A DNA stretch of 64,000 nt from Lentilactobacillus sunkii DSM 19904 (GTDB lineage: Bacteria; Bacillota; Bacilli; Lactobacillales; Lactobacillaceae): assembly GCF_001435575.1 (NCBI RefSeq), contig NZ_AZEA01000008.1:1-64000 (forward strand), read 5' to 3'. The notes below the pieces were generated by a model. It did not search any database and was not told the DNA's origin. It saw only the letters and a list, made by a program, of their open reading frames with translations. Position numbers and translations under genes: made by a program. This document shows positions 10,779 to 21,993 of the stretch, piece after piece (position 1 is the first letter of the stretch; the number at the start of each line of letters is the position of its first letter).

Positions 10779-12164
10779 TTAGTCCTTAGCATGACGTGCA
10801 GCCAAGTCTGCTTTGATTTGTGGTTCCATCTTCTCGTACTTGAAGTACAAGCACATGATGGCAGCAACAATCGCATAGATGATAACTGGAAGATAGATGA
10901 ATGTGAAGTGAATTGCTGAAAGAGCATGGGCAGTCTGAGTCTTGTTAGCAACGAATCCGGCAGCAGCCATGATCTTTGATGGGATAAATGAACCGAATCC
11001 TGAACCTAACTGGATACAGAAGGCAGAACCAACGGCAGTCAAGAACCCAGGGGCACGAATACCCGTCTTCCACTCACCATAATCAACAGTATCGGCTAAC
11101 ATACCAAATGGCATAGCAATGGCAGTTGAAGCACCGAAGATACCGATAATCCAAGCGACAATAACAAGAGTGAAGTTGTTACCAACCATACCCATCATGA
11201 TCTGACCAAAGGCACCAATTGCCAAACCAATTAACATGGTAGCAGTCTTGTTAGTAACCTTAACGATAAATGGAATACACATTGTTGCGATGATACCAAG
11301 AACTTGAAGTCCGTTAAATACTGAAGTTAATTGTTCGTTACCAAGGTTGTATTTAGCGTAGTAAACTGAGATACCATTACGAGTTGACTGAGCAACCCAG
11401 TAAATAACGAATGCGACAACCAAGATGTACCATGGGTTGTTACCAACAGTTGCTTTCAAAGAATCCTTAAATGGAATTGGCTTCTGAATAGCAATAGTAC
11501 GTTCCTTCATTCCCTTGAATGCCAAGAAGAGAAGGATGATTGCCAAGATACCAAACATGAACATTGTCCACATGAAACCAACTTTGTCGTCACCTTTACC
11601 AAAGAATGCAACTAATGGTAAAGCGAAGGTACTAGTGATAAATGATCCAATGGCTCCACCACACATACGGAATGTGTTGGCGTTGATACGTTCCTGACCG
11701 TTAGTAGTTAAACTAGGAAGAATAGCAGTAATTGGTGTTTGAATACCTGTATAAATAACACCAGCAGCTAGGATGTAAGTAAATCCGGCATACCATAATT
11801 TAGCAGTACCGTGTAAGTTTGGAGCGGTAAATGCTAAGAATGTGGCAGCAGCAAATGGAATTGCCAGCCATAAGAAGTATGGTCGACTTTGGCCCCATTT
11901 TGTGTGGGTGTGGTCAACAATTGATCCCCAAACTGGTGCACTGATGGCATCGAATATACGAGCAACCAGTAAGATTAAACCGGCTCCACCAACTGAGATA
12001 CTGAATACATCAGTATAGAAATAAAGAATATAACTTGAAATTGTAACATATAGCAAGTTACCAGCCATATCAGTAAAGGAGTAAGCTGTTTTCTCCCAAA
12101 CTGACAGTTTAACGTTTGCACTGTCTTTGCTGGTACCTGCTGCACTAGCAGCGTTTTTATCCAT
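10779..12164 (-). CDS. GPH-family glycoside:cation symporter
   Basis: A 461-residue secondary transporter with 12 predicted helices. Family marks of the glycoside-pentoside-hexuronide group are the N-terminal KTAYSFTDMAGNLLY, the GSIVDHTHTKWGQSRPYFLW loop (fewer than twenty residues at a time recognisable) and MLADTVDYGEWKTG between the two halves. It is the last gene of the operon starting with the GH127/GH146 enzyme. I infer that it imports beta-L-arabinofuranosyl oligosaccharides, because both local glycosidases lack signal peptides and must act inside the cell. The ATG at 12164 has GGAG with 9 nt spacing; the upstream in-frame ATG at 12170 is too close to it. Confidence 0.88.
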   Translation of the reverse strand: MDKNAASAAGTSKDSANVKLSVWEKTAYSFTDMAGNLLYVTISSYILYFYTDVFSISVGGAGLILLVARIFDAISAPVWGSIVDHTHTKWGQSRPYFLWLAIPFAAATFLAFTAPNLHGTAKLWYAGFTYILAAGVIYTGIQTPITAILPSLTTNGQERINANTFRMCGGAIGSFITSTFALPLVAFFGKGDDKVGFMWTMFMFGILAIILLFLAFKGMKERTIAIQKPIPFKDSLKATVGNNPWYILVVAFVIYWVAQSTRNGISVYYAKYNLGNEQLTSVFNGLQVLGIIATMCIPFIVKVTNKTATMLIGLAIGAFGQIMMGMVGNNFTLVIVAWIIGIFGASTAIAMPFGMLADTVDYGEWKTGIRAPGFLTAVGSAFCIQLGSGFGSFIPSKIMAAAGFVANKTQTAHALSAIHFTFIYLPVIIYAIVAAIMCLYFKYEKMEPQIKADLAARHAKD

Positions 12165-12254
12165 GATCATAATCTCCTATCCAAATTTTATTGAAAATAA
12201 TTGCAAAACAAAATGTGAAACGGGCCACCACCTCCTAAAGTGGAATCTGTCCAA

Positions 12255-14621
12255 TTATTCGAATTTACGGGTTGATAGATTGAACAACGCTTTATCCTTG
12301 TTGCTTTCTAATACAAGTCCGTCATCCAAATAAATATATTCATTGATGTATGGTGCAAAGCTTTGAACCTCATAGTGTTCGTCAACAAGCTTCTTAACGC
12401 GTCCGTTGACGGCTGTGAGACCGTTTTGCTTATCCTTATAGATATAAGTCTTTTGACCAAATCCATTCAGGAAGGCAACCAGCTCTTCACCCATGTCCCA
12501 ATCATCTTCACCTGTGTATCCATCTGGGAACAGACGGGCGAAGATACCGCCGTCTGATGCAAAGATGGATTGGCCAAATCGGTTTCTGGAAAGATCAGGC
12601 CGGTTCAGGTTCGGCCCTGCAATACTGTATGTTGATGCTGCTTCGCCGGGTTTAAGCATCCGGTTGGTAGCAGTCGCATTGGAGTCATACATGTAAAGGA
12701 TGGCACCAGTAGCCCGATAAGCAGCTTCTACCAGTTCGGGATCTTGAAGCTTCTCACCTGCAATTTGTGCAGATGCAGCGGTTAAACCGCCCCATAGTGC
12801 ATGAATCATGTATGATAAGGCTTCCCACCAACGATCAGGGCTTTGGGAACGGAAGTCGTTACTGAAGCCGATATTGGCTTTCAGCAACTCACCGTAAGTT
12901 GTTGCAGCGTGGACATTACCGGTTAAAGCAAGTGCGCCGGCAGCTGGACCAAATCCAGCGTTATCGAAGAAATGCTCTGTCATCGCAGCTTCCAAAGAAT
13001 CACTGTTGGCTGCAAGTCTGTCGGTAACTGATTTCCATGATTTGGAAATCTCTGAATACTCTTTATCCAATCCACTCTTCTGCAGATCGGCCAACAAGTC
13101 TTCAATGTAGAGACCGTAAGTTCCAAGCATCTGAGCCTCTGTCTTACCACGTTCATTGTCATTGAGATCCGGGTTAACCCGAACATCAAATACCTGGGCA
13201 GCCCATGAGAGATAGTCATTAGGCTTGTTGAGCTTCAATGATGAAGCTGGGCATTTGGACAACAGGTAGAACATGTGAGCGATATACTCCAAATCCATCA
13301 AGCGATAAAAGTCACCATATAGTTTGGCAGGCTTCTTAAAATCACCGTTTTCAAACCATTTTGGCCGGACATACTTCACAGCACTTTCTTCAACTTGGGC
13401 AATTTGCTTATCGGCATCCTTAACTTTGTCATCCAGCAGGCATTCCTGAAGAATGAAGGTCATCTTTCCGATTGACTCGCCTTGGTTGGATACAGGTCCG
13501 AAACTGTATGGTACCTTGCCGTCTTTTCCTGCATACGAATGTTCGGAAACATAATCTGCACGGTTTCGAAGCAATTCGTTGATTGAATTCATGACATTGA
13601 AAACACCCATGTCGACTGTCCCGTCATCAAATTCAAGAATTACCTGGTGCTCACCAAGCCCTTGTGGCTCGTACACAAGTCGGCCATTTTCCAGTTGATC
13701 GGTCATATCCTGATCAACAATCTCTTCACCGGACTTGTGTCGGACGGTAATGCTCTTCAAAGTTTGACCTTTGGCAAGCTTAATCGTGAAGACCTGATAA
13801 GAACCTTGGGAAATCATCGGTTCAAATGAGAATCTTGGATGATTGTATAATCTCGTCGCAATATCATAAAAGTCTTTTTGATCGGTGAATGGTTTTAGAT
13901 AAAACTCCCAATTCTTGCTTTCACCAGGTTTAAGAACCAGTGAGTTTTGAGGATAAATCCAGTCGTTATGCGGCCTGCGGTCATCATCGTAGCCGCCAGC
14001 CAGGACAATTTCATGGAAGAGCATGCCATCCAATGAAGGCGACACGTTTTCAAAGAATCGGTTGGTGTAGTCATTGAACGTTCCCACCGAAAGTACTTCA
14101 CCCTTGGTTTGATAAACACCCAGGTTAGGGGCTGTGTTGTCACGACGGACAGCAGCCAGCTTTGTATAATTCTTTGAGATTTGGGGAAAGACCGCAACGG
14201 ATTGATTGGCATTTCGCTTAACGTTCTTATCTCTGAACATGACATAGGCCAAGCTGATCCAAACGCCGAGATTGCTAATGGTGATGTCTTCTTCGCCGTT
14301 ATTTTGAACGGTAAAATCCCATTTAAATGAATTGCCGATCAGTTGAAATTGTTGAACCAATGAAAGATCATCCACCTTGAATTGAAGCTTGCTATGAGTA
14401 TCATCACCGCTTACCTCAGGATCCTGATCAATACTGCGGTGCTTTTGCCCATCCACCGTGATGTTAAATTCTCCAAACAATTTATCCAGGTCGTCATATC
14501 CAAGTGACTCAAGATAATTGGGATCGATTACCCAGTTCATGTTGGATTTATCGGAATTCAACTGTAACTTTGTAATAGCTCCACGCTTGTTTTGTGAAAC
14601 TGTCAGAAATTCTGACTTCAT
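12255..14621 (-). CDS. Large soluble protein of unknown function (DUF5695-like), candidate glycoside-acting enzyme
   Basis: A 788-residue protein with no signal peptide or membrane helix. The first 300 residues look like a beta-sandwich, rich in short strands and ending in LKPGESKNWEFYLKPF. A linker follows, and the C-terminal half is helical with conserved-looking aromatic and acidic clusters: SPDRWWEALSYMIHALWGG, FFDNAGFGPAAGALALTG, EDDWDMGEELVAFLNGFG. A beta-sandwich plus (alpha/alpha)-barrel layout is typical of several glycosidase clans, and the protein resembles the DUF5695 group, but I cannot confirm the family. It lies 21 nt downstream of the GH127/GH146 gene with a CAGGAGG site, so it is certainly co-transcribed. 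A role in breaking the imported arabinofuranoside is inferred from position only. Confidence 0.72.
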   Translation of the reverse strand: MKSEFLTVSQNKRGAITKLQLNSDKSNMNWVIDPNYLESLGYDDLDKLFGEFNITVDGQKHRSIDQDPEVSGDDTHSKLQFKVDDLSLVQQFQLIGNSFKWDFTVQNNGEEDITISNLGVWISLAYVMFRDKNVKRNANQSVAVFPQISKNYTKLAAVRRDNTAPNLGVYQTKGEVLSVGTFNDYTNRFFENVSPSLDGMLFHEIVLAGGYDDDRRPHNDWIYPQNSLVLKPGESKNWEFYLKPFTDQKDFYDIATRLYNHPRFSFEPMISQGSYQVFTIKLAKGQTLKSITVRHKSGEEIVDQDMTDQLENGRLVYEPQGLGEHQVILEFDDGTVDMGVFNVMNSINELLRNRADYVSEHSYAGKDGKVPYSFGPVSNQGESIGKMTFILQECLLDDKVKDADKQIAQVEESAVKYVRPKWFENGDFKKPAKLYGDFYRLMDLEYIAHMFYLLSKCPASSLKLNKPNDYLSWAAQVFDVRVNPDLNDNERGKTEAQMLGTYGLYIEDLLADLQKSGLDKEYSEISKSWKSVTDRLAANSDSLEAAMTEHFFDNAGFGPAAGALALTGNVHAATTYGELLKANIGFSNDFRSQSPDRWWEALSYMIHALWGGLTAASAQIAGEKLQDPELVEAAYRATGAILYMYDSNATATNRMLKPGEAASTYSIAGPNLNRPDLSRNRFGQSIFASDGGIFARLFPDGYTGEDDWDMGEELVAFLNGFGQKTYIYKDKQNGLTAVNGRVKKLVDEHYEVQSFAPYINEYIYLDDGLVLESNKDKALFNLSTRKFE

Positions 14622-14642
14622 GTGTAAAACCTCCTGGAGTTG

Positions 14643-16823
14643 TTAGTTATTTGATACCATTGTTTCGATCTTGTTAATGTTGGCAATATCGTAATTTGAT
14701 CCTTCGTAATCAAGCGGTGTGATCTTGATGTTAATCTTGTTCTTTCCATTAGTTGCATCAACTGGTAATGGATAGATGTAGTATGAATCTTCAGGCCACT
14801 CATCATTCTTCATCGTCTGGGTGAACAAGACCTTGTTATCATCTTGAATTTGGAAGCTGTAAATATCGCCATCAAGATAATCGTATGTGATCTTCAAGTA
14901 ATTCTTCTTGTCCGGATCAACTGCTAAAGTCCATGAATGTTCTTCGTTCACTGGATTGTCGCTGTCATTTTGGGTGTCGATGGTTGTTGCAACTGCTTCA
15001 TCAGGCACCTTAACGTATACGTTGTATGGTGTGTCTGCCGGAATCTCTGGAAGTGACTTGAAAATAATATCAGTACCTGCAAGTCTGAACTGGTTCTTAT
15101 CTTCAACTTTTTGCAGATCTTCCAAATATTCAACAGCTGGTTTAGTTGATGCTGGTAAGTCTTTAGTCTGGGCGGCTAACAGGATTGGGCCGTAGTAGAT
15201 GGCAACTCGGTTGAATCGATCAGCAAGTGTTTGATAATGAAGTTGGAAATCAAGGTTAACTTTAATTTCACTCTTCTTGCCCCAGTTGCGTTTGATTGCA
15301 ACAAAGCCATTTTCTGGTTGAGCACTAATCTCTTCACCATCAACGGTAATTGTTGTTTCTGCACTCCACTTAGGAACTCGAACGTAAACAGCGAATTCCT
15401 GGTCCTTATCTGATTCAACAGTAATGTGGGCAAAATGTTGATCTGGATAATGTGAATCCTGGGTGATTGTGATACCCTTGTCTTTCAAATTCAGGATTGA
15501 ATCGAAGTATTGAGCAACATAGATGTCGTTTCCGTCTTCGTAATAAATCCCGTCAACTAAAGTGGAATGACGTTCAGTACCACTACCAACACAGCACCAG
15601 AAGCCGCCACGATCAAACTCTTTGGTTGCGTTAGGCGAAACGCTTAAGTTGTAAAGATATTCTGCGATAGCGCTGTCATTATTCTGCTGAGCCATGATGG
15701 CGTTGATGAAACGAATCTCGTAGTCATCCATTAAGGTAGCGTCTTTAGTATCAGCGAATAATTCGGAACTCAAGTAGTTCAAATCATGTGAGCAGCAGCT
15801 TTCACCGTTTAACTTGGATAAGTGCTTGAAGAACATTTCAGGGTAATCATAGAGTTCTGAACCATAATCAGCAGGTGCCGGATATGCAGAACGACCTGAA
15901 ATTCCCTTGGTTGGCAATTCATGGCCGGTATGCATCCAGTTCATGAAGTTCTCAACACCATCTTTATATTTTTCATCACCAGTTGTGTGATAGTATTCGA
16001 GCATCCCTTCAGCACAAACCAATTCGGTGTTTGAATGACATGAGTAGTAACCTAATTCATCGTCATTCTTGATGAGCATGTCGCGGAACCATTTACGGTC
16101 AAACTTTTCAGCAAGATCAAAGACATCCTGTTCTTTCTTACCGTTCAGCTCGTAAAGCCTCAATAGTGTTCGATGCATTGCACCAAATTCTTGATGGAAT
16201 ACATAATGGCCTTTTCCTTGATACCAGCGTGTGTCAATCATTGCATTGATTCTTTCAGGTGTCAGACGTGCCATCCGTTTTTCAAAGTAATGGGTCAAAT
16301 TCTCAGTCAATTCAAGAGCTGTCTTATTGCCAGTGAATTCATATGCATCCATTAAGCCATCCATCAATTTTTGTGCGGCATAATAAGGCACATAATGGTT
16401 ACCGTTGAATCGGAGCTTTTCAATATCATCAAATCGTTTCGATGGTTCAGCTAATAAGTAGCCGGGGAACTCTTCGAATGTATCAAATTTTTCCTGGCAT
16501 TCTTTCAAACCATCGACAATCGTGTCAACTCGTCGTTTAAGTTCGTTTGCCTGGTCATTGTCACCCATGTTGTTAAGTTCAACGAAACTCTTAGAAGCAC
16601 CTGATAGGTAATGACCAGTAAAATGGCCTCGGAAGAACCAGTCGGGTGATTCCCAAACAGTCAAAGGTGTCGCACCTTTGGTGTCCAGCCCCGCGTTTTT
16701 ACGGTAGTTATAAAGTAGTTGGTCTGTAGTGAGTGAAAGCATCCAGTTAATGTTTCGATCGAACTTCTCTTTAAGGGTCGATCCTGGTAAGTATTGAATG
16801 TCGTAGTATGATACCGGTTTCAT
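14643..16823 (-). CDS. GH127/GH146-type beta-L-arabinofuranosidase (DUF1680)
   Basis: A 726-residue cytosolic glycosidase. In Bifidobacterium longum HypBA1 (GH127) a zinc ion is held by Glu338, Cys340, Cys417 and Cys418, with one of the paired Cys as nucleophile. The same arrangement is visible here as E341-S-C343 within GESCCSH and C410-C411 within FWCCVGSG. The catalytic (alpha/alpha)6 barrel covers about residues 30-430 and is followed by beta-sandwich domains. The WCCVGSGTERHS form of the motif fits the longer GH146-like branch better than classical GH127. It is the first gene of the operon with the unknown large protein and the GPH symporter, and it diverges from an AraC gene. A cre-like site precedes it. 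Confidence 0.87.
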   Translation of the reverse strand: MKPVSYYDIQYLPGSTLKEKFDRNINWMLSLTTDQLLYNYRKNAGLDTKGATPLTVWESPDWFFRGHFTGHYLSGASKSFVELNNMGDNDQANELKRRVDTIVDGLKECQEKFDTFEEFPGYLLAEPSKRFDDIEKLRFNGNHYVPYYAAQKLMDGLMDAYEFTGNKTALELTENLTHYFEKRMARLTPERINAMIDTRWYQGKGHYVFHQEFGAMHRTLLRLYELNGKKEQDVFDLAEKFDRKWFRDMLIKNDDELGYYSCHSNTELVCAEGMLEYYHTTGDEKYKDGVENFMNWMHTGHELPTKGISGRSAYPAPADYGSELYDYPEMFFKHLSKLNGESCCSHDLNYLSSELFADTKDATLMDDYEIRFINAIMAQQNNDSAIAEYLYNLSVSPNATKEFDRGGFWCCVGSGTERHSTLVDGIYYEDGNDIYVAQYFDSILNLKDKGITITQDSHYPDQHFAHITVESDKDQEFAVYVRVPKWSAETTITVDGEEISAQPENGFVAIKRNWGKKSEIKVNLDFQLHYQTLADRFNRVAIYYGPILLAAQTKDLPASTKPAVEYLEDLQKVEDKNQFRLAGTDIIFKSLPEIPADTPYNVYVKVPDEAVATTIDTQNDSDNPVNEEHSWTLAVDPDKKNYLKITYDYLDGDIYSFQIQDDNKVLFTQTMKNDEWPEDSYYIYPLPVDATNGKNKINIKITPLDYEGSNYDIANINKIETMVSNN

Positions 16824-16882
16824 TTTTAATCGTCCTTTCTGGAAATAAAGTGAGTTTATTGATAAGGAACTAATAATTATTC

Positions 16883-16896
16883 TGTAACCGCTTACG
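16883..16896 (-). promoter_or_regulatory. cre-like operator of the arabinofuranoside operon
   Basis: TGTAACCGCTTACG matches the catabolite-response consensus at all but the last position. It sits 60 nt before the GH ATG and just downstream of a TATATA -10-like box (read on the minus strand), a repressing position. The rest of the 346-bp divergent region is AT-rich, and I see no other clear operator. Confidence 0.6.
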
Positions 16897-17169
16897 ATAT
16901 ATAGAATACAATCGATTTAGGTTAATTAGAATCCATTATCTTATTAACAATTTATAAAATATAACAGAATCAAATATATTGGATTGTTAATCACTGAACG
17001 TGTAGCAAACGGCCATATTACCCGTGATAAAAGTTTTTGAACTTTAATATTAATAAATGAAAAATTTGACTTTTTATGGTTTATGAACTATTTTTATATT
17101 ATCAAAATGTTTATTTATAAAATCTGATTTAGCCCTTAAATCCAGCTGATTATCATTGGAGGTTTTGTC

Positions 17170-18105
17170 ATGGTAAAAGAGTTTTTATCAATATCTTGTC
17201 TGCCTACACCAACTTATATTCAGAGTGGCCACGTCGTCTTTAGTCCCGGTGAGAAGCATCCAAATCGGAAGAATTTTCAGTTTTTCGTCATGATGTTTAT
17301 GATTCGAGGCAAATTGTACATTGCCGAGGATGACACCCAATATACAGTCAGTGCAGGTGAGATGTTTATCCTGCAGCCTCAACATCACCATTATTCATGG
17401 AAACCAATGGACGAAACCACTGAGTACTATTGGATTCACTTCGCAACGACAGGCAATTATGTTCAGGGACAAGAGCCCAAACAGGTTCGCCCAGCAATCC
17501 CTGTTCCTGCAATTCACTACTACACTTCGACGATTACTTTGTTCTTACGGAAGCAGCAAACCATTCCGAATCAAGAGACGGTTATCTCCATGATCAAGAA
17601 GATTTTTTCCAATAGCAGAAAATCCAATGAGAATCATTCCGACACCACTCAAAACTCGATTGAATTCTGGAAAGCTCAGCAGCTGTTTCTCGATCTTTTG
17701 CAGCAAATTCAGGTTCAAACGCCGCAGGAGTCGCCAATGGTCTTAGTTGCCAATAAGATTCAACGATACATTGAAGATCATTTCGACGAAAAGATTACCT
17801 ATGAACAACTGGGTAAAGAATTTCACATTCATCCAAATTCCGTTTCGTTATATATGAAGAAAACTTTCGGAATTACGCCAAACAATCTACTCACAAAATA
17901 CCGTTTGGAGGAAGCCACCAAGTATCTTCTGCTCACTTCCGACCAAATCAGTACCATCGCCACCAAGGTCGGCTACCAAAATGTCTATTACTTTTCGATG
18001 GCCTTCAAGAAAGGCTATGGCATGTCGCCTTCCGAATACCGCAAGAAGTACATTAGTTTGAAGCCAAACACACCGGATGACGGTTCTGCAAATCAATTTA
18101 TGTAG
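17170..18105 (+). CDS. AraC-family transcriptional regulator
   Basis: A 311-residue regulator. An N-terminal cupin-like ligand domain (about residues 15-105, with VSAGEMFILQPQHHHYS as the cupin strand) is joined by a linker to two C-terminal helix-turn-helix motifs (about 196-295), closing with YFSMAFKKGYGMSPSEYRKKY. It is divergent from the GH127/GH146 operon and shares a 346-bp promoter region with it, so it most likely activates that operon when a sugar ligand binds. A TGGAGG site precedes the ATG. It is convergent with the second GH127 gene. Confidence 0.9.
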   Translation: MVKEFLSISCLPTPTYIQSGHVVFSPGEKHPNRKNFQFFVMMFMIRGKLYIAEDDTQYTVSAGEMFILQPQHHHYSWKPMDETTEYYWIHFATTGNYVQGQEPKQVRPAIPVPAIHYYTSTITLFLRKQQTIPNQETVISMIKKIFSNSRKSNENHSDTTQNSIEFWKAQQLFLDLLQQIQVQTPQESPMVLVANKIQRYIEDHFDEKITYEQLGKEFHIHPNSVSLYMKKTFGITPNNLLTKYRLEEATKYLLLTSDQISTIATKVGYQNVYYFSMAFKKGYGMSPSEYRKKYISLKPNTPDDGSANQFM

Positions 18106-18108
18106 AGC

Positions 18109-18159
18109 AAAACGCCTGCTTACAAAGAATGGGGTTAATTTGTAGGCAGGCGTTTTATT
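18109..18159. terminator. Bidirectional terminator between AraC and GH127 genes
   Basis: 18-bp arms from AAAACGCCTGCTTACAAA to its complement with a 12-nt loop. It has T runs in both directions and serves the convergent AraC (+) and GH127 (-) genes. Confidence 0.88.
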
Positions 18160-18208
18160 ATGCTCAAATCACGATTAAGAGTGATCCGCCCAACAATTTG
18201 ATTCGGTT

Positions 18209-20182
18209 TTAGAATTCATTTTGATGAAGCCAAACCGTCATTTGCTTCTCATCGCGGTTAGCCCATGCATAATATGGAATCAATGTTAAGCGACTCTTTT
18301 GGGCGCCCTTTGGTGTATCAAAGGTATACAAATCATCTGTACTGTCTTCTTCAAGGTAATAGGCATCATCAGTGGATAATGTGCCAACCCCACTTAATAG
18401 TTGAGGTTGATACTGGTACTTAAACGATGGCTTTTGTCCTAAGATATAGCTCGACAGCGGTTGCTTGTTATCAACACCTTCTGCACAATAAACGATTGGT
18501 CCACGTTGAACAGCGACTTTCATGACATCTGCACTAACGCGAGTATTTGCTCTGACAAGGTGAGTATTCATGTTAAGGACAAGATTAATTTCGAGTTCCT
18601 TGGCGTCAACCGGAATGTAGAGAATGTCGTCTTCCAGCTTGGTGTCGACTTCTTGGCCATTGACTTTGACTGAATATTTATCAAGACTCCATGAAGGAAT
18701 ACGAATACCAAAAGTGAATTTGCTGTCATGCGGATTTGAAATGGTGTAATTGATATTGCCATCCCAAGGGAAATTGCCAGTCTGCTTAATTTCAATGTCA
18801 TCATTAAACTTGGCATCGTTAGCAACGAATTGATGAGATAAAATCACTTCGTCATGAACTTCATACAAGTATTGATCAAGTGATGCAATCAATCGGGTAA
18901 TGTTAGCCGGGCAGCAGGCGCATGCAAACCATGATGATCGTCGAAGGGCAATGTGTTTCTTGCCAGGATTCAATTCACTGGCAGTTGGGTCGGCTTCCAA
19001 TGGGTTGGCATAGAAGTAATGCTTTCCATCCAAAGCAATTCCACTCAAGGCACCATTGAAGATTTCCTTTTCGATAATGTCACCGAATTTTCCGTCAAAT
19101 TTATTGGCCATCATCTGCTTGGTGAAGAATGCCATCGAAACAGAGGCACATGTTTCACCGTAATCGGTATCGTTAGGCAAATCATAATCGTAAGTGAAGG
19201 CCTCGCCAGTTGCTGTTTGGCCTACGTTACCAGTGATATACATCTGCTTTTTGACGATATCATTCCAAATTGTATTAGCTGCTTTTAACAGTTTGTCATC
19301 ATGTTCAACCCGAGCAACATGAGCTAAACCGGTGCAGAAGTACAATACTCGGACAGCATGGCCATGAGCATCCTTTTGCTCAGTTATTGGCTTGTCGGCG
19401 AAGTAATAACGATCGCCAATCGTCCGCAATTCTGGGAAGAAGTCATTATCAATACCATCTGCCTCGTTTTGGCGATCAAAGAACTTCAGGTCGCGTCCAC
19501 GTTCAGTGATGAAGTATTTAGCCAAATTCAAGTAAGTTTTATTTTTGGTTGCTTCATAAAGTTTGGATAATGCGAGTTCAATCTCTGGGTGACCATCATA
19601 GCCATGAATCTTGCCATCTTCCGGTCCGAAGTGATTGTTGATACATTCGGCCATCTTTTCAGCAATGTCTAATGCCTTCTTATTCCCAGTTGATTCATAG
19701 TAGGCAACTCCGGCTTCAATATAGTGCCCCATTGAATATAATTCGTGAGATTGTTGAAGACGCTTGAATTTCCGCTGAGGCGCATCGATCTGGAAATAAG
19801 TTGAGAGATATCCGTCATCGTCTTGGGCATCGGCAATCAAGTCAACTGTCCAGTCTGCTTCATCCTTCATCTTTTGATCGAAATGGTACTTCAATACATA
19901 AGCGACTGTTTCCAACCACTTATAAACATCAGTGTCTTGGAATGGGTAGCCAAAGTGATGACCTTTTGCTCGGCCGGCAGCAATCTTCAAATTTTCGATT
20001 GCCCCACTATGATCGGCTGCACCACCTGCTGCATCCGCATTGGTGACATCCATCTTACCTTTGTCATTGATCATATCCCATTGGAAAGGAACTGAATCAT
20101 TGGCAATTAAATCACGATAACGTTTCCAAAAACCCGATGTGATTTGGACCTCGTTTAATGATAATTTAGTTAATTCATCCAT
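18209..20182 (-). CDS. Beta-L-arabinofuranosidase, GH127 (HypBA1-like)
   Basis: A 657-residue cytosolic enzyme, very similar in layout to B. longum HypBA1, which releases L-arabinose from beta-1,2-arabinofuranosyl disaccharide of hydroxyproline-rich plant glycoproteins. The zinc and catalytic residues are visible as E343-T-C345 in YGETCASV and C423-C424 in FACACCPANITR. The barrel covers about residues 20-440 and beta-sandwich domains follow. There is no signal peptide. It is monocistronic, divergent from its own AraC gene at 20520, and preceded by a cre-like site and an inverted repeat. GH127 is near certain from the motifs; the natural substrate is inferred. Confidence 0.92.
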   Translation of the reverse strand: MDELTKLSLNEVQITSGFWKRYRDLIANDSVPFQWDMINDKGKMDVTNADAAGGAADHSGAIENLKIAAGRAKGHHFGYPFQDTDVYKWLETVAYVLKYHFDQKMKDEADWTVDLIADAQDDDGYLSTYFQIDAPQRKFKRLQQSHELYSMGHYIEAGVAYYESTGNKKALDIAEKMAECINNHFGPEDGKIHGYDGHPEIELALSKLYEATKNKTYLNLAKYFITERGRDLKFFDRQNEADGIDNDFFPELRTIGDRYYFADKPITEQKDAHGHAVRVLYFCTGLAHVARVEHDDKLLKAANTIWNDIVKKQMYITGNVGQTATGEAFTYDYDLPNDTDYGETCASVSMAFFTKQMMANKFDGKFGDIIEKEIFNGALSGIALDGKHYFYANPLEADPTASELNPGKKHIALRRSSWFACACCPANITRLIASLDQYLYEVHDEVILSHQFVANDAKFNDDIEIKQTGNFPWDGNINYTISNPHDSKFTFGIRIPSWSLDKYSVKVNGQEVDTKLEDDILYIPVDAKELEINLVLNMNTHLVRANTRVSADVMKVAVQRGPIVYCAEGVDNKQPLSSYILGQKPSFKYQYQPQLLSGVGTLSTDDAYYLEEDSTDDLYTFDTPKGAQKSRLTLIPYYAWANRDEKQMTVWLHQNEF

Positions 20183-20230
20183 TGTATAATCTCCTTACTC
20201 TTTGTTATTCAGGTAGCTGTATTACTTCGC

Positions 20231-20248
20231 GGTGACGTTGTTGTCACC
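20231..20248. promoter_or_regulatory. Inverted repeat upstream of GH127 gene
   Basis: GGTGAC-N6-GTCACC, perfect 6-bp arms, 49 nt before the GH127 ATG. It could be a regulator site or a small leader hairpin; AraC proteins usually bind direct repeats, so the binding factor is unknown. Confidence 0.4.
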
Positions 20249-20263
20249 TGATTACAATTTAAA

Positions 20264-20277
20264 TGATAACGGTTTCA
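20264..20277 (-). promoter_or_regulatory. cre-like operator of the GH127 gene
   Basis: TGATAACGGTTTCA, 13 of 14 matches to the cre consensus, immediately downstream of a TATACT -10-like box (20283-20288 on the minus strand). It lies in the 337-bp divergent region between GH127 and the second AraC gene. A weaker cre-like match is at 20332-20345. Confidence 0.6.
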
Positions 20278-20519
20278 TGTGCAGTATAAAACTGATAAAT
20301 AATCATATTTGGTGTAAAAATATGACATTTCTAATAGCGCTTTCATACATTGAATGCTAAAATGAAATCATAAAATTAAAAAATATCGGAAAAACGTTGC
20401 AGCACCAACGATTCACCTCTCCCTATTGCTTTAAAGCATTCGGGTTGACGTTTTTTGTAATTTGGTGTATTTAATTGACTAAAAGTATTTTTATAAATCT
20501 TTCATGTGGAGGGATTATC

Positions 20520-21443
20520 ATGGACAAGCTGACCATTCATAAAAATCAAGTTGTTTCCTACATGATCGGCGGAAATTTCACTGCTGATTCAGGATGGAAG
20601 CACAAAGTTCGATACCATCATGGTGACTATGAGCTGATGGTGTGTTTACAGGGACCGATCAGCTTGTTGATTGGAACCGACAATGTTGTGCTGAATAAGA
20701 ATGACGTCTTAATCGTCCCACCCTACACTTCGATGAGGGGAACCGTTTCTTCCCCAAAACCAATTGAGTTTTATTGGTTACACTTTTTAGTTCCCAAGGC
20801 CCCGTTGCACACAACTGGTGAACCCGACAAACAATCTCAGATTGCCTTTAGAAACAAGTACCACTTGAATGATTTGAGTGAATTACTTATATCCATACAT
20901 GAGCTTCTCACAATTGATACTTCACTTCCATTGACTCAAGAGCGTCAAGATCTCCTTATGACGCTTATTCTGATTCAAATTGCCGGGACAGCCACAGATT
21001 CAACCGATGAAGATCAAAGCAGTGCACTCATCGATCAATTAAAAGAATGGATTCGAACTAATATTTATAAATCGCCGACTCTGACAGATATTGCCAACGA
21101 AACCGGGCTCAACCCACAATATGTCTCTCGAGTTTTCAAGAAGTACGTTTCTATGTCCCCCAAGCACTACATGATCCATCTGAAAATTCAGACGGCCCAG
21201 GCATTGTTAATTCGGACGAATTTATCTATCAAAGAGGTCAGTCACTATGCTTATTATTCAGACGACAAGTTATTCTTGAAACAATTTAAGCAGCTAAGTG
21301 GTGTCACGCCGAGTGAATTTCGGACAATGTACCAGAAGGTCTACCATAATAACCAGGTCATTGATCCGGTACTACCGATTCCAGAAGAGATCACCCAGAA
21401 GCTGGATAATGATCGAGATCCGGGGAGTCCAACAAATAAGTGA
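20520..21443 (+). CDS. AraC-family transcriptional regulator
   Basis: A 307-residue regulator with an N-terminal cupin-type domain (about residues 10-95, KNDVLIVPPYTSMRG) and two C-terminal helix-turn-helix motifs (LTDIANETGLNPQYVSRVFKK, about residues 190-215, and a second ending FLKQFKQLSGVTPSEFR). The frame opens 15 codons earlier, but TGGAGGG lies just before the ATG at 20520, which is taken as the start. It is divergent from the GH127 gene and by position is its activator. It is related to, but clearly different from, the AraC protein at 17.2 kb. Confidence 0.9.
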   Translation: MDKLTIHKNQVVSYMIGGNFTADSGWKHKVRYHHGDYELMVCLQGPISLLIGTDNVVLNKNDVLIVPPYTSMRGTVSSPKPIEFYWLHFLVPKAPLHTTGEPDKQSQIAFRNKYHLNDLSELLISIHELLTIDTSLPLTQERQDLLMTLILIQIAGTATDSTDEDQSSALIDQLKEWIRTNIYKSPTLTDIANETGLNPQYVSRVFKKYVSMSPKHYMIHLKIQTAQALLIRTNLSIKEVSHYAYYSDDKLFLKQFKQLSGVTPSEFRTMYQKVYHNNQVIDPVLPIPEEITQKLDNDRDPGSPTNK

Positions 21444-21514: not shown

Positions 21515-21847
21515 TTAGTCTGTGCCAAGTCGCTTGTCCCAAAAATAAAACCATACTGCAATGATGGGGCCAAACAAGTCGTATGCCACCAACAAAGCAA
21601 CGGCGACAAAAAAGTTCATTTCCCCGACTGCTTCACCTTTTGCTTTCGCAGTTGCTTGGGAAATTGGATAAAGGCCTCGAAATTTCATTAAATAGAACTG
21701 ACTTGCAAAAGACAAGATCAGCCATACCAACACTAATCCGATTCGCATTGTGAAGCTGCCATCAGGGTTGGAGCAATACAGAAAGTAAATACCCGAAATA
21801 AGGATTGCCTGTAGTGCTACTCGAAGTAAATATACTGGTTTGTTCAT
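21515..21847 (-). CDS. Small integral membrane protein of unknown function
   Basis: A 110-residue protein with three predicted membrane helices (about residues 8-25, 36-53 and 78-101) and a basic loop KFRGLYPISQATAKAKGEAVGE between helices 2 and 3 (residues 55-76). AAGGAG lies 8 nt before the ATG. It is monocistronic, and I do not recognise a family. Confidence 0.75.
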   Translation of the reverse strand: MNKPVYLLRVALQAILISGIYFLYCSNPDGSFTMRIGLVLVWLILSFASQFYLMKFRGLYPISQATAKAKGEAVGEMNFFVAVALLVAYDLFGPIIAVWFYFWDKRLGTD

Positions 21848-21993
21848 TTAATATCTCCTTGCTAAAATAACTGAAATCTCTTAAATCGTGAGATCGCTTT
21901 CAATGCTATTTTACAGTTACTTGGTCATTTAGGTAATCTATAATCTACCCGAGAATTTATAATAAGACACACAATATATCGGCTATCCGTGGA

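Follow-up and report, generated by a model that had tools for sequence, protein, structure and literature searches.

The DNA between positions 10779 and 21443 of the window (the first 64,000 nucleotides of contig NZ_AZEA01000008.1 of the plant-associated Lentilactobacillus sunkii DSM 19904) probably encodes a locus for scavenging short arabinosides, induced through AraC and subject to catabolite repression, in which a GH146-type enzyme is accompanied by a candidate new arabinosidase of 788 amino acids. We assign this reading, which is drawn from sequence and structure comparisons, a probability of approximately 0.6. The pathway logic is already known from bifidobacteria, making the locus as first described unsurprising; it represents a familiar type of system in a new arrangement. 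What makes it of value is a candidate, open to testing, for a new family of carbohydrate-active enzymes: a cytosolic protein, retained in many genomes, that has a fold resembling a lyase and gene neighbours that repeatedly point to L-arabinose. The literature searched yielded no publication on GH127/GH146 operons of Lentilactobacillus.

Organisation of the locus and its host genome

A check of open reading frames located all six genes of the locus exactly where a preliminary description, made from the sequence alone, had placed them. The features are as follows:

10779..12170, minus strand, GPH-family sugar:cation symporter of 463 aa (TIGR00792, 362.7 bits against a cut-off of 231.35; PF13347, 258.8 bits)
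12255..14621, minus strand, cytosolic protein of 788 aa, candidate new arabinosidase (AlphaFold2 model, Foldseek/VIA, profile search, hhalign and gene neighbourhoods)
14643..16823, minus strand, predicted GH146-type beta-L-arabinofuranosidase of 726 aa (PF07944 and GH127M; best PDB matches 5opj, 8k7y and 8k7x)
16883..16896, minus strand, cre-like (CcpA) site CGTAAGCGGTTACA, directly downstream of a -10-like TATTCT and kept in aligned GH146-operon promoters
16951..17119, minus strand, TATAAA repeats, candidate AraC1 operator (two lie 21 bp apart, at 17119 and 17098, and a third is at 16956)
17170..18105, plus strand, AraC1, AraC-family regulator divergent from the GH146 operon (HTH_18, AraC_binding; co-occurrence)
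18209..20182, minus strand, predicted GH127 beta-L-arabinofuranosidase of HypBA1 type, 657 aa (PF07944/GH127M/GH127C; match to 3wkw)
20264..20277, minus strand, cre-like site TGAAACCGTTATCA upstream of the GH127 gene, an exact consensus match
20475..21443, plus strand, AraC2, AraC-family regulator divergent from the GH127 gene (HTH_18, AraC_binding)

The AraC2 reading frame is listed from a TTG codon, an in-frame ATG 15 codons on (20520) being the likelier start. A further exact cre-like site, TGAAAGCGATCTCA, is located at 21889-21902, upstream of a small gene (21515-21847).

Both enzymes, each divergent from its own AraC regulator and initially assigned to the GH127 superfamily, matched PF07944 (187 and 343 bits against a cut-off of 24.9), yet they belong to different families, the 726-residue protein being GH146-type and the 657-residue protein GH127. 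The two units had been described as mirrored; they instead share one orientation, with AraC on the plus strand and the enzyme to its left on the minus strand, and are arranged in tandem. The zinc and cysteine residues reported as intact were found at the positions quoted, where they align with those that bind zinc or act as nucleophile in GH146 and GH127 enzymes of known structure. The reported absence of signal peptides was borne out by a hydropathy scan (a heuristic, not SignalP), in which the three soluble proteins had no N-terminal hydrophobic stretch. Family matches and catalytic residues support the original reading of a beta-L-arabinofuranoside utilisation locus, which would be cytosolic, symporter-fed and AraC-controlled.

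PF07944 was found above the cut-off in 56 of 350 sampled Lactobacillaceae genomes, and the source genome had the highest count among the 350, with five such genes, three of them outside the locus. A GPH gene was paired with GH127 at two further loci of this genome, and the L-arabinose isomerase gene araA was found elsewhere in it. Another contig carries a second arabinose island (C12:189700-205100), in the order GH146-like (803 aa), two GH51-type genes, MFS transporter, AraC1 homologue, GH51, GPH and a second 788-type gene, the product of which is 69% identical.

The GH146-type and GH127 enzymes

The 726-residue enzyme scored 132, 125 and 119 bits against GH146 structures and at most 41 bits against GH127 structures and is, by these scores and with no tree behind the assignment, GH146-type rather than GH127. 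The closest structures were BT0349 (5opj) and Bll3HypBA1 (8k7y/8k7x), though similarity to the characterised GH146 enzymes was distant (E 1e-37). The residues E694, E723, C725, C804, C805 and E578 are essential in Bll3HypBA1 (PMC10850190), and E341, C343, C410, C411 and E212 of the 726-residue enzyme align with essential residues of this set; the acid/base residue E323 was aligned through BT0349, the alignment with Bll3HypBA1 being shifted at that point. In common with Bll3HypBA1/BT0349 (PMC10850190) are the catalytic (alpha/alpha)6 domain, the E-x-C...CC zinc site and the acid/base Glu, together with the aligned -1 subsite residues W429, E578, H628 and N630, whereas overall identity is low and the signal peptide, LamG and membrane anchor are lacking. 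Even the two characterised GH146 enzymes differ from one another at the positions tied to linkage specificity, be it for beta1,3- or Hyp-linked substrates (PMC10850190). In one Lentilactobacillus relative the GH146 gene has been reduced to a 41-codon fragment (G001:C1:1086941-1087063; 85% identity), a sign of operon loss.

The 657-residue protein matched HypBA1 (3wkw) over nearly its full length (E 9e-202) and is, by alignment, a HypBA1-type GH127 enzyme. Its residues E343, C345, C423 and C424 align with E338, C340, C417 and C418 of HypBA1, comprising the cysteine nucleophile and zinc site. Among the HypBA1 substrate residues listed in PMC10850190, H142, Y145, H194 and R273, along with the acid/base E322, were all identical in the phmmer alignment, E327 being the aligned acid/base of the 657-residue enzyme. 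All zinc, catalytic and substrate-binding residues and the intracellular location are hence shared with HypBA1, the differences being that the gene encoding the 657-residue enzyme has a divergent AraC as its regulator and, within the window, no adjoining transporter. An aceric acid hydrolase assignment (NF049879) was rejected for this protein, at 383 bits against a cut-off of 950.

Conservation and regulation of the operon

Orthologues of the GH146-type enzyme (at least 75% identity) were present in 10 of the 24 Lentilactobacillus genomes sampled, and the 788 gene adjoined in all ten. The comparison of gene order that had been proposed at the outset found AraC1 divergent from GH146-788-GPH to be kept across Lentilactobacillus, with the same order in Sporolactobacillus shoreicorticis (L014). 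The gaps inside the operon are tight (21 and 84 bp), its GPH orthologues are 81-95% identical, and close homologues of the 788-residue protein occur in L. kefiri (94% identity), where the gene order is the same, and in L. otakiensis (92%). Homologues of AraC1 accompany the 788 gene in most of its Lactobacillaceae loci.

The TATAAA pattern was kept across 11 aligned intergenic regions, and repeats 21 bp apart are as expected of an AraC-type operator. The TATAAA pair was absent from GH51-type cassettes and so is no general AraC1-family site. From the conserved cre site and the 21-bp-spaced repeats, we infer that GH146-788-GPH is an inducible, catabolite-repressed sugar operon. Scans for promoters and terminators gave results at chance level.

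The GH127/AraC2 unit was found to be more mobile than the GH146 operon. The GH127 gene was missing from the fetched stretch around four GH146 operons (L007, L010, L012 and L014), lay on the other side of the operon in two (L008 and L013), and was accompanied by an MFS transporter of its own in L024 and, as far as gene position and length indicate, also in L006 and L009. This mobility, and the possession of its own regulator and cre site, would suit two functionally unrelated neighbours acting on different sugars rather than one locus. However, the two units lie side by side in six species (the window, L006, L008, L009, L013 and L024) and in more than one arrangement, which exceeds what unrelated genes would lead one to expect; we regard unrelated units as a serious possibility of clearly less than even probability.

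Fold and homology of the 788-residue protein

The preliminary description had called this protein unknown, which holds in that its family is uncharacterised, but overlooks both a recognisable fold and its standing as the most conserved member of the operon. The AlphaFold2 model (pLDDT 82.4, pTM 0.85) begins with a beta-sandwich, continues into an (alpha/alpha)6 barrel and ends in a beta-rich segment; pLDDT is low at residues 595-609 and 663-691, conserved loops that likely line the active site. Its top fold match was the PL27 L-rhamnose-alpha-1,4-D-glucuronate lyase BACCELL_00875 (5no8; PMC8377490), with a Foldseek E value of 4e-25 and, by VIA, a Z score of 30.6 over 594 residues at 2.9 A, the next entry having a Z of 16.2. 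A PDB sequence search with the protein alone returned nothing useful, PL27 being reached only by the family profile (E 1e-8, mostly N-terminal), and NCBIfam held no name for it. Although whole-chain fold and sequence homology are shared with BACCELL_00875, identity is only about 15%, the barrel aligns poorly with almost no profile score, and the 788-residue protein differs in its cytosolic location, its arabinose-gene partners, an extra C-terminal beta-rich segment (about 720-788) and having no GH105 partner in its genome.

The family is also homologous to DUF5695 (PF18951), as established by hhalign (97.8%, about 570 columns). The 788-residue protein scored 28.6 bits against PF18951 (cut-off 25.2) over 276 of 857 positions and some orthologues fell below the cut-off; the family is a compact group of its own that lies near the Pfam threshold, above or below. 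Across 36 homologues approximately 60 polar or aromatic residues of the C-terminal domain were invariant or nearly so. E549 and D553, both invariant, are matched by E566/D570 in DUF5695 and by Glu/Glu of PL27 in a weakly scoring segment, and are no more than candidates for the catalytic residues.

Distribution and gene neighbourhoods of the 788-residue protein

The gene was identified in 33 of the 350 Lactobacillaceae genomes, representing 9 of 40 genera, and in other Bacilli, and is more widespread than GH146; the plasmid collection contained no match. Two instances of a 788-type gene split into several open reading frames, by decay or sequencing error, were observed: a second copy in L. raoultii (L030:10001-12369) and one in MAG UBA5807 (L028:135-2497).

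Three contexts were distinguished. In the first, the gene is found with GH146, GPH and AraC1. The second, seen in many Lactobacillaceae including contig C12 of the source genome, combines it with a GH51 alpha-L-arabinofuranosidase, GPH and an AraC1 homologue. In the third, found in two Bacilli (G465 and G643), it occurs with GPH, AraC and araA-araD-araB. The G643 gene lies with araE-araA-araD-araB, GPH and AraC, and its flanks, over some 17 kb on the upstream and 13 kb on the downstream side, contained no other recognised glycosidase. That of G465 is situated between araBAD and the glucuronate genes uxuA/uxuB/KDPG aldolase, neighbours that leave room for a uronic-acid substrate. The common thread of these contexts is L-arabinose, and the third suggests that the 788-residue protein may itself release this sugar. 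In Paenibacillus-type genomes (L083-L091), the 788-type gene was found with a LacI regulator and an ABC importer, and most of these loci also have a gene for a large secreted protein (about 1,600 aa). These secreted proteins carry Big/PKD/F5-8C domains, one with an MGH1-like GH domain and another (L087) with DUF5695.

Possible activities of the 788-residue protein

Taking the modelled fold and these neighbourhoods together, we propose that the protein may be an exo-acting arabinosidase of a new family, to which we give slightly less than an even chance. Against this stands its nearest experimentally known fold relative, a lyase acting on Rha-GlcA and not an arabinosidase. A PL27-like lyase might instead uncap a glucuronic-acid residue (e.g. 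of rhamnose or arabinose) in imported arabinogalactan fragments, in keeping with the best fold match and detectable homology to BACCELL_00875 and with the action of PL27 on arabinogalactan protein (PMC8377490). The source genome encodes uxuA, which also lies beside the 788 gene in G465, and GPH porters include hexuronide carriers. However, PF07470 (the GH105/GH88 unsaturated-uronide hydrolases, a pathway feature and not a strict family feature) was not found in the source genome, which argues against filing the protein as a PL27 lyase; with rhamnose isomerase also lacking, such a role is disfavoured in this organism. The weak correspondence of the barrel and the arabinose genes (GH51, GH146 and araBAD) that partner the protein across genomes likewise weigh against a lyase, which we consider unlikely.

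Somewhat more unlikely still is a disaccharide phosphorylase-type or other non-hydrolytic enzyme of GH65/94-like architecture, acting on an arabinose-containing disaccharide. The cytosolic, symporter-fed setting is typical of phosphorylases, and the second-tier fold matches were cellobiose/chitobiose phosphorylases and GH149, but these fell far short of PL27, being weak matches with a Z of about 14-15 and a whole-chain rmsd of about 20 A, and the operon has no gene that uses a sugar 1-phosphate. A non-catalytic sugar-binding or chaperone partner of the adjoining glycosidase, as might be imagined given that its close relatives have no known activity and that the gene always adjoins a real glycosidase in the Lentilactobacillus operon, is improbable in view of the G643 locus without a recognised glycosidase nearby and the near-invariant C-terminal-domain residues, E549/D553 included.

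Proposed pathway and comparison with bifidobacteria

According to the arabinoside-scavenging reading, the GPH symporter would import a small sugar containing beta-L-arabinofuranoside, from which the cytosolic GH146-type enzyme would remove terminal beta-L-Araf by a zinc-cysteine retaining mechanism, the residues for which are in place. The 788-residue protein would act on this sugar, either before or after trimming, and most likely be an arabinosidase of exo type from a new family with the PL27/DUF5695 fold, and the separately regulated HypBA1-type GH127 might cleave beta1,2-linked arabinobiose-like sugars. The L-arabinose released would then enter the araA pathway. GPH porters typically carry mono- to trisaccharides, and for this reason the uptake of intact oligosaccharide, as originally proposed, was too strong a claim, although symporter-fed cytosolic cleavage stands. 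Extensin is one possible source only; arabinogalactan proteins or arabinan (Araf-beta1,3) would suit equally.

A contrast with bifidobacteria had also been drawn, which does not hold: HypBA1 of B. longum is itself intracellular (PMC7263609), and a BauR2 regulon of cytoplasmic HypBA1 and the GPH symporter BauT was predicted by a comparative study in 2018 (PMC5928203). The bifidobacterial beta-arabino-oligosaccharide regulons (HypBA1 with BauABC or BauT; PMC5928203, PMC7263609) resemble the present locus in small beta-arabinoside import and cytosolic GH127, the BauR2 version also in its GPH symporter. The GH146 operon, which joins a gene for a predicted cytosolic beta-L-arabinofuranosidase to a GPH gene under one regulator, is an analogue of the BauT/HypBA1 type. 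The bifidobacterial regulators BauR1/BauR2 are, by contrast, LacI-type and not AraC, neither GH146 nor the 788-residue protein has been described in those operons, and some bifidobacteria possess extracellular GH121 and GH43. GH121 is missing from several strains that hold other beta-arabinoside genes (PMC5928203).

DUF5695 relatives

The only paper found that mentions DUF5695 concerns fungal regulators. Full DUF5695 genes, 15 in total, were present in 12 of the 350 Lactobacillaceae genomes, and each of these 12 also has PF07944. Of the 15, 10 lay within 12 kb of a PF07944 (GH127/GH146) gene, where about 0.04 would be expected per gene (about 1e-11 under a random-placement model that ignores species relatedness). 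In Lentilactobacillus, full members, some of them secreted with DUF5776, adjoin GH127/GH146. The DUF5695 proteins of several relatives combine a hydrophobic N-terminal segment with a DUF5776 domain (L009 and L010), so a surface-located partner may exist there; no such surface DUF5695 partner was found in the source genome. Those with a signal-peptide-like N-terminus that adjoin the GH146 operon are L009:14524-18315 (L. kisonensis), L010:2175-6011 (L. fungorum) and L014:12111-14945 (Sporolactobacillus), two of the three having a C-terminal DUF5776, and are candidate surface enzymes feeding that operon.

Tentatively, and with odds that fall somewhat short of even, the 788-residue family and its DUF5695 relatives may together make up a new superfamily of enzymes that cleave arabinosides and are built on the PL27 fold, with secreted and cytosolic members. 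The anchored DUF5695-DUF5776 proteins of Lentilactobacillus and the large Paenibacillus-type proteins would release oligosaccharides, which the cytosolic 788-residue proteins would finish. If true, this superfamily would provide the as yet unassigned enzymes to be expected of species in which beta-arabinoside genes are found without GH121. Outside the Lactobacillaceae, the pairing of DUF5695 with GH127 was also observed in G465 (L094:4282-8907), where a cytosolic DUF5695 protein of 851 aa is encoded directly beside GH127 in an ABC-transporter operon.
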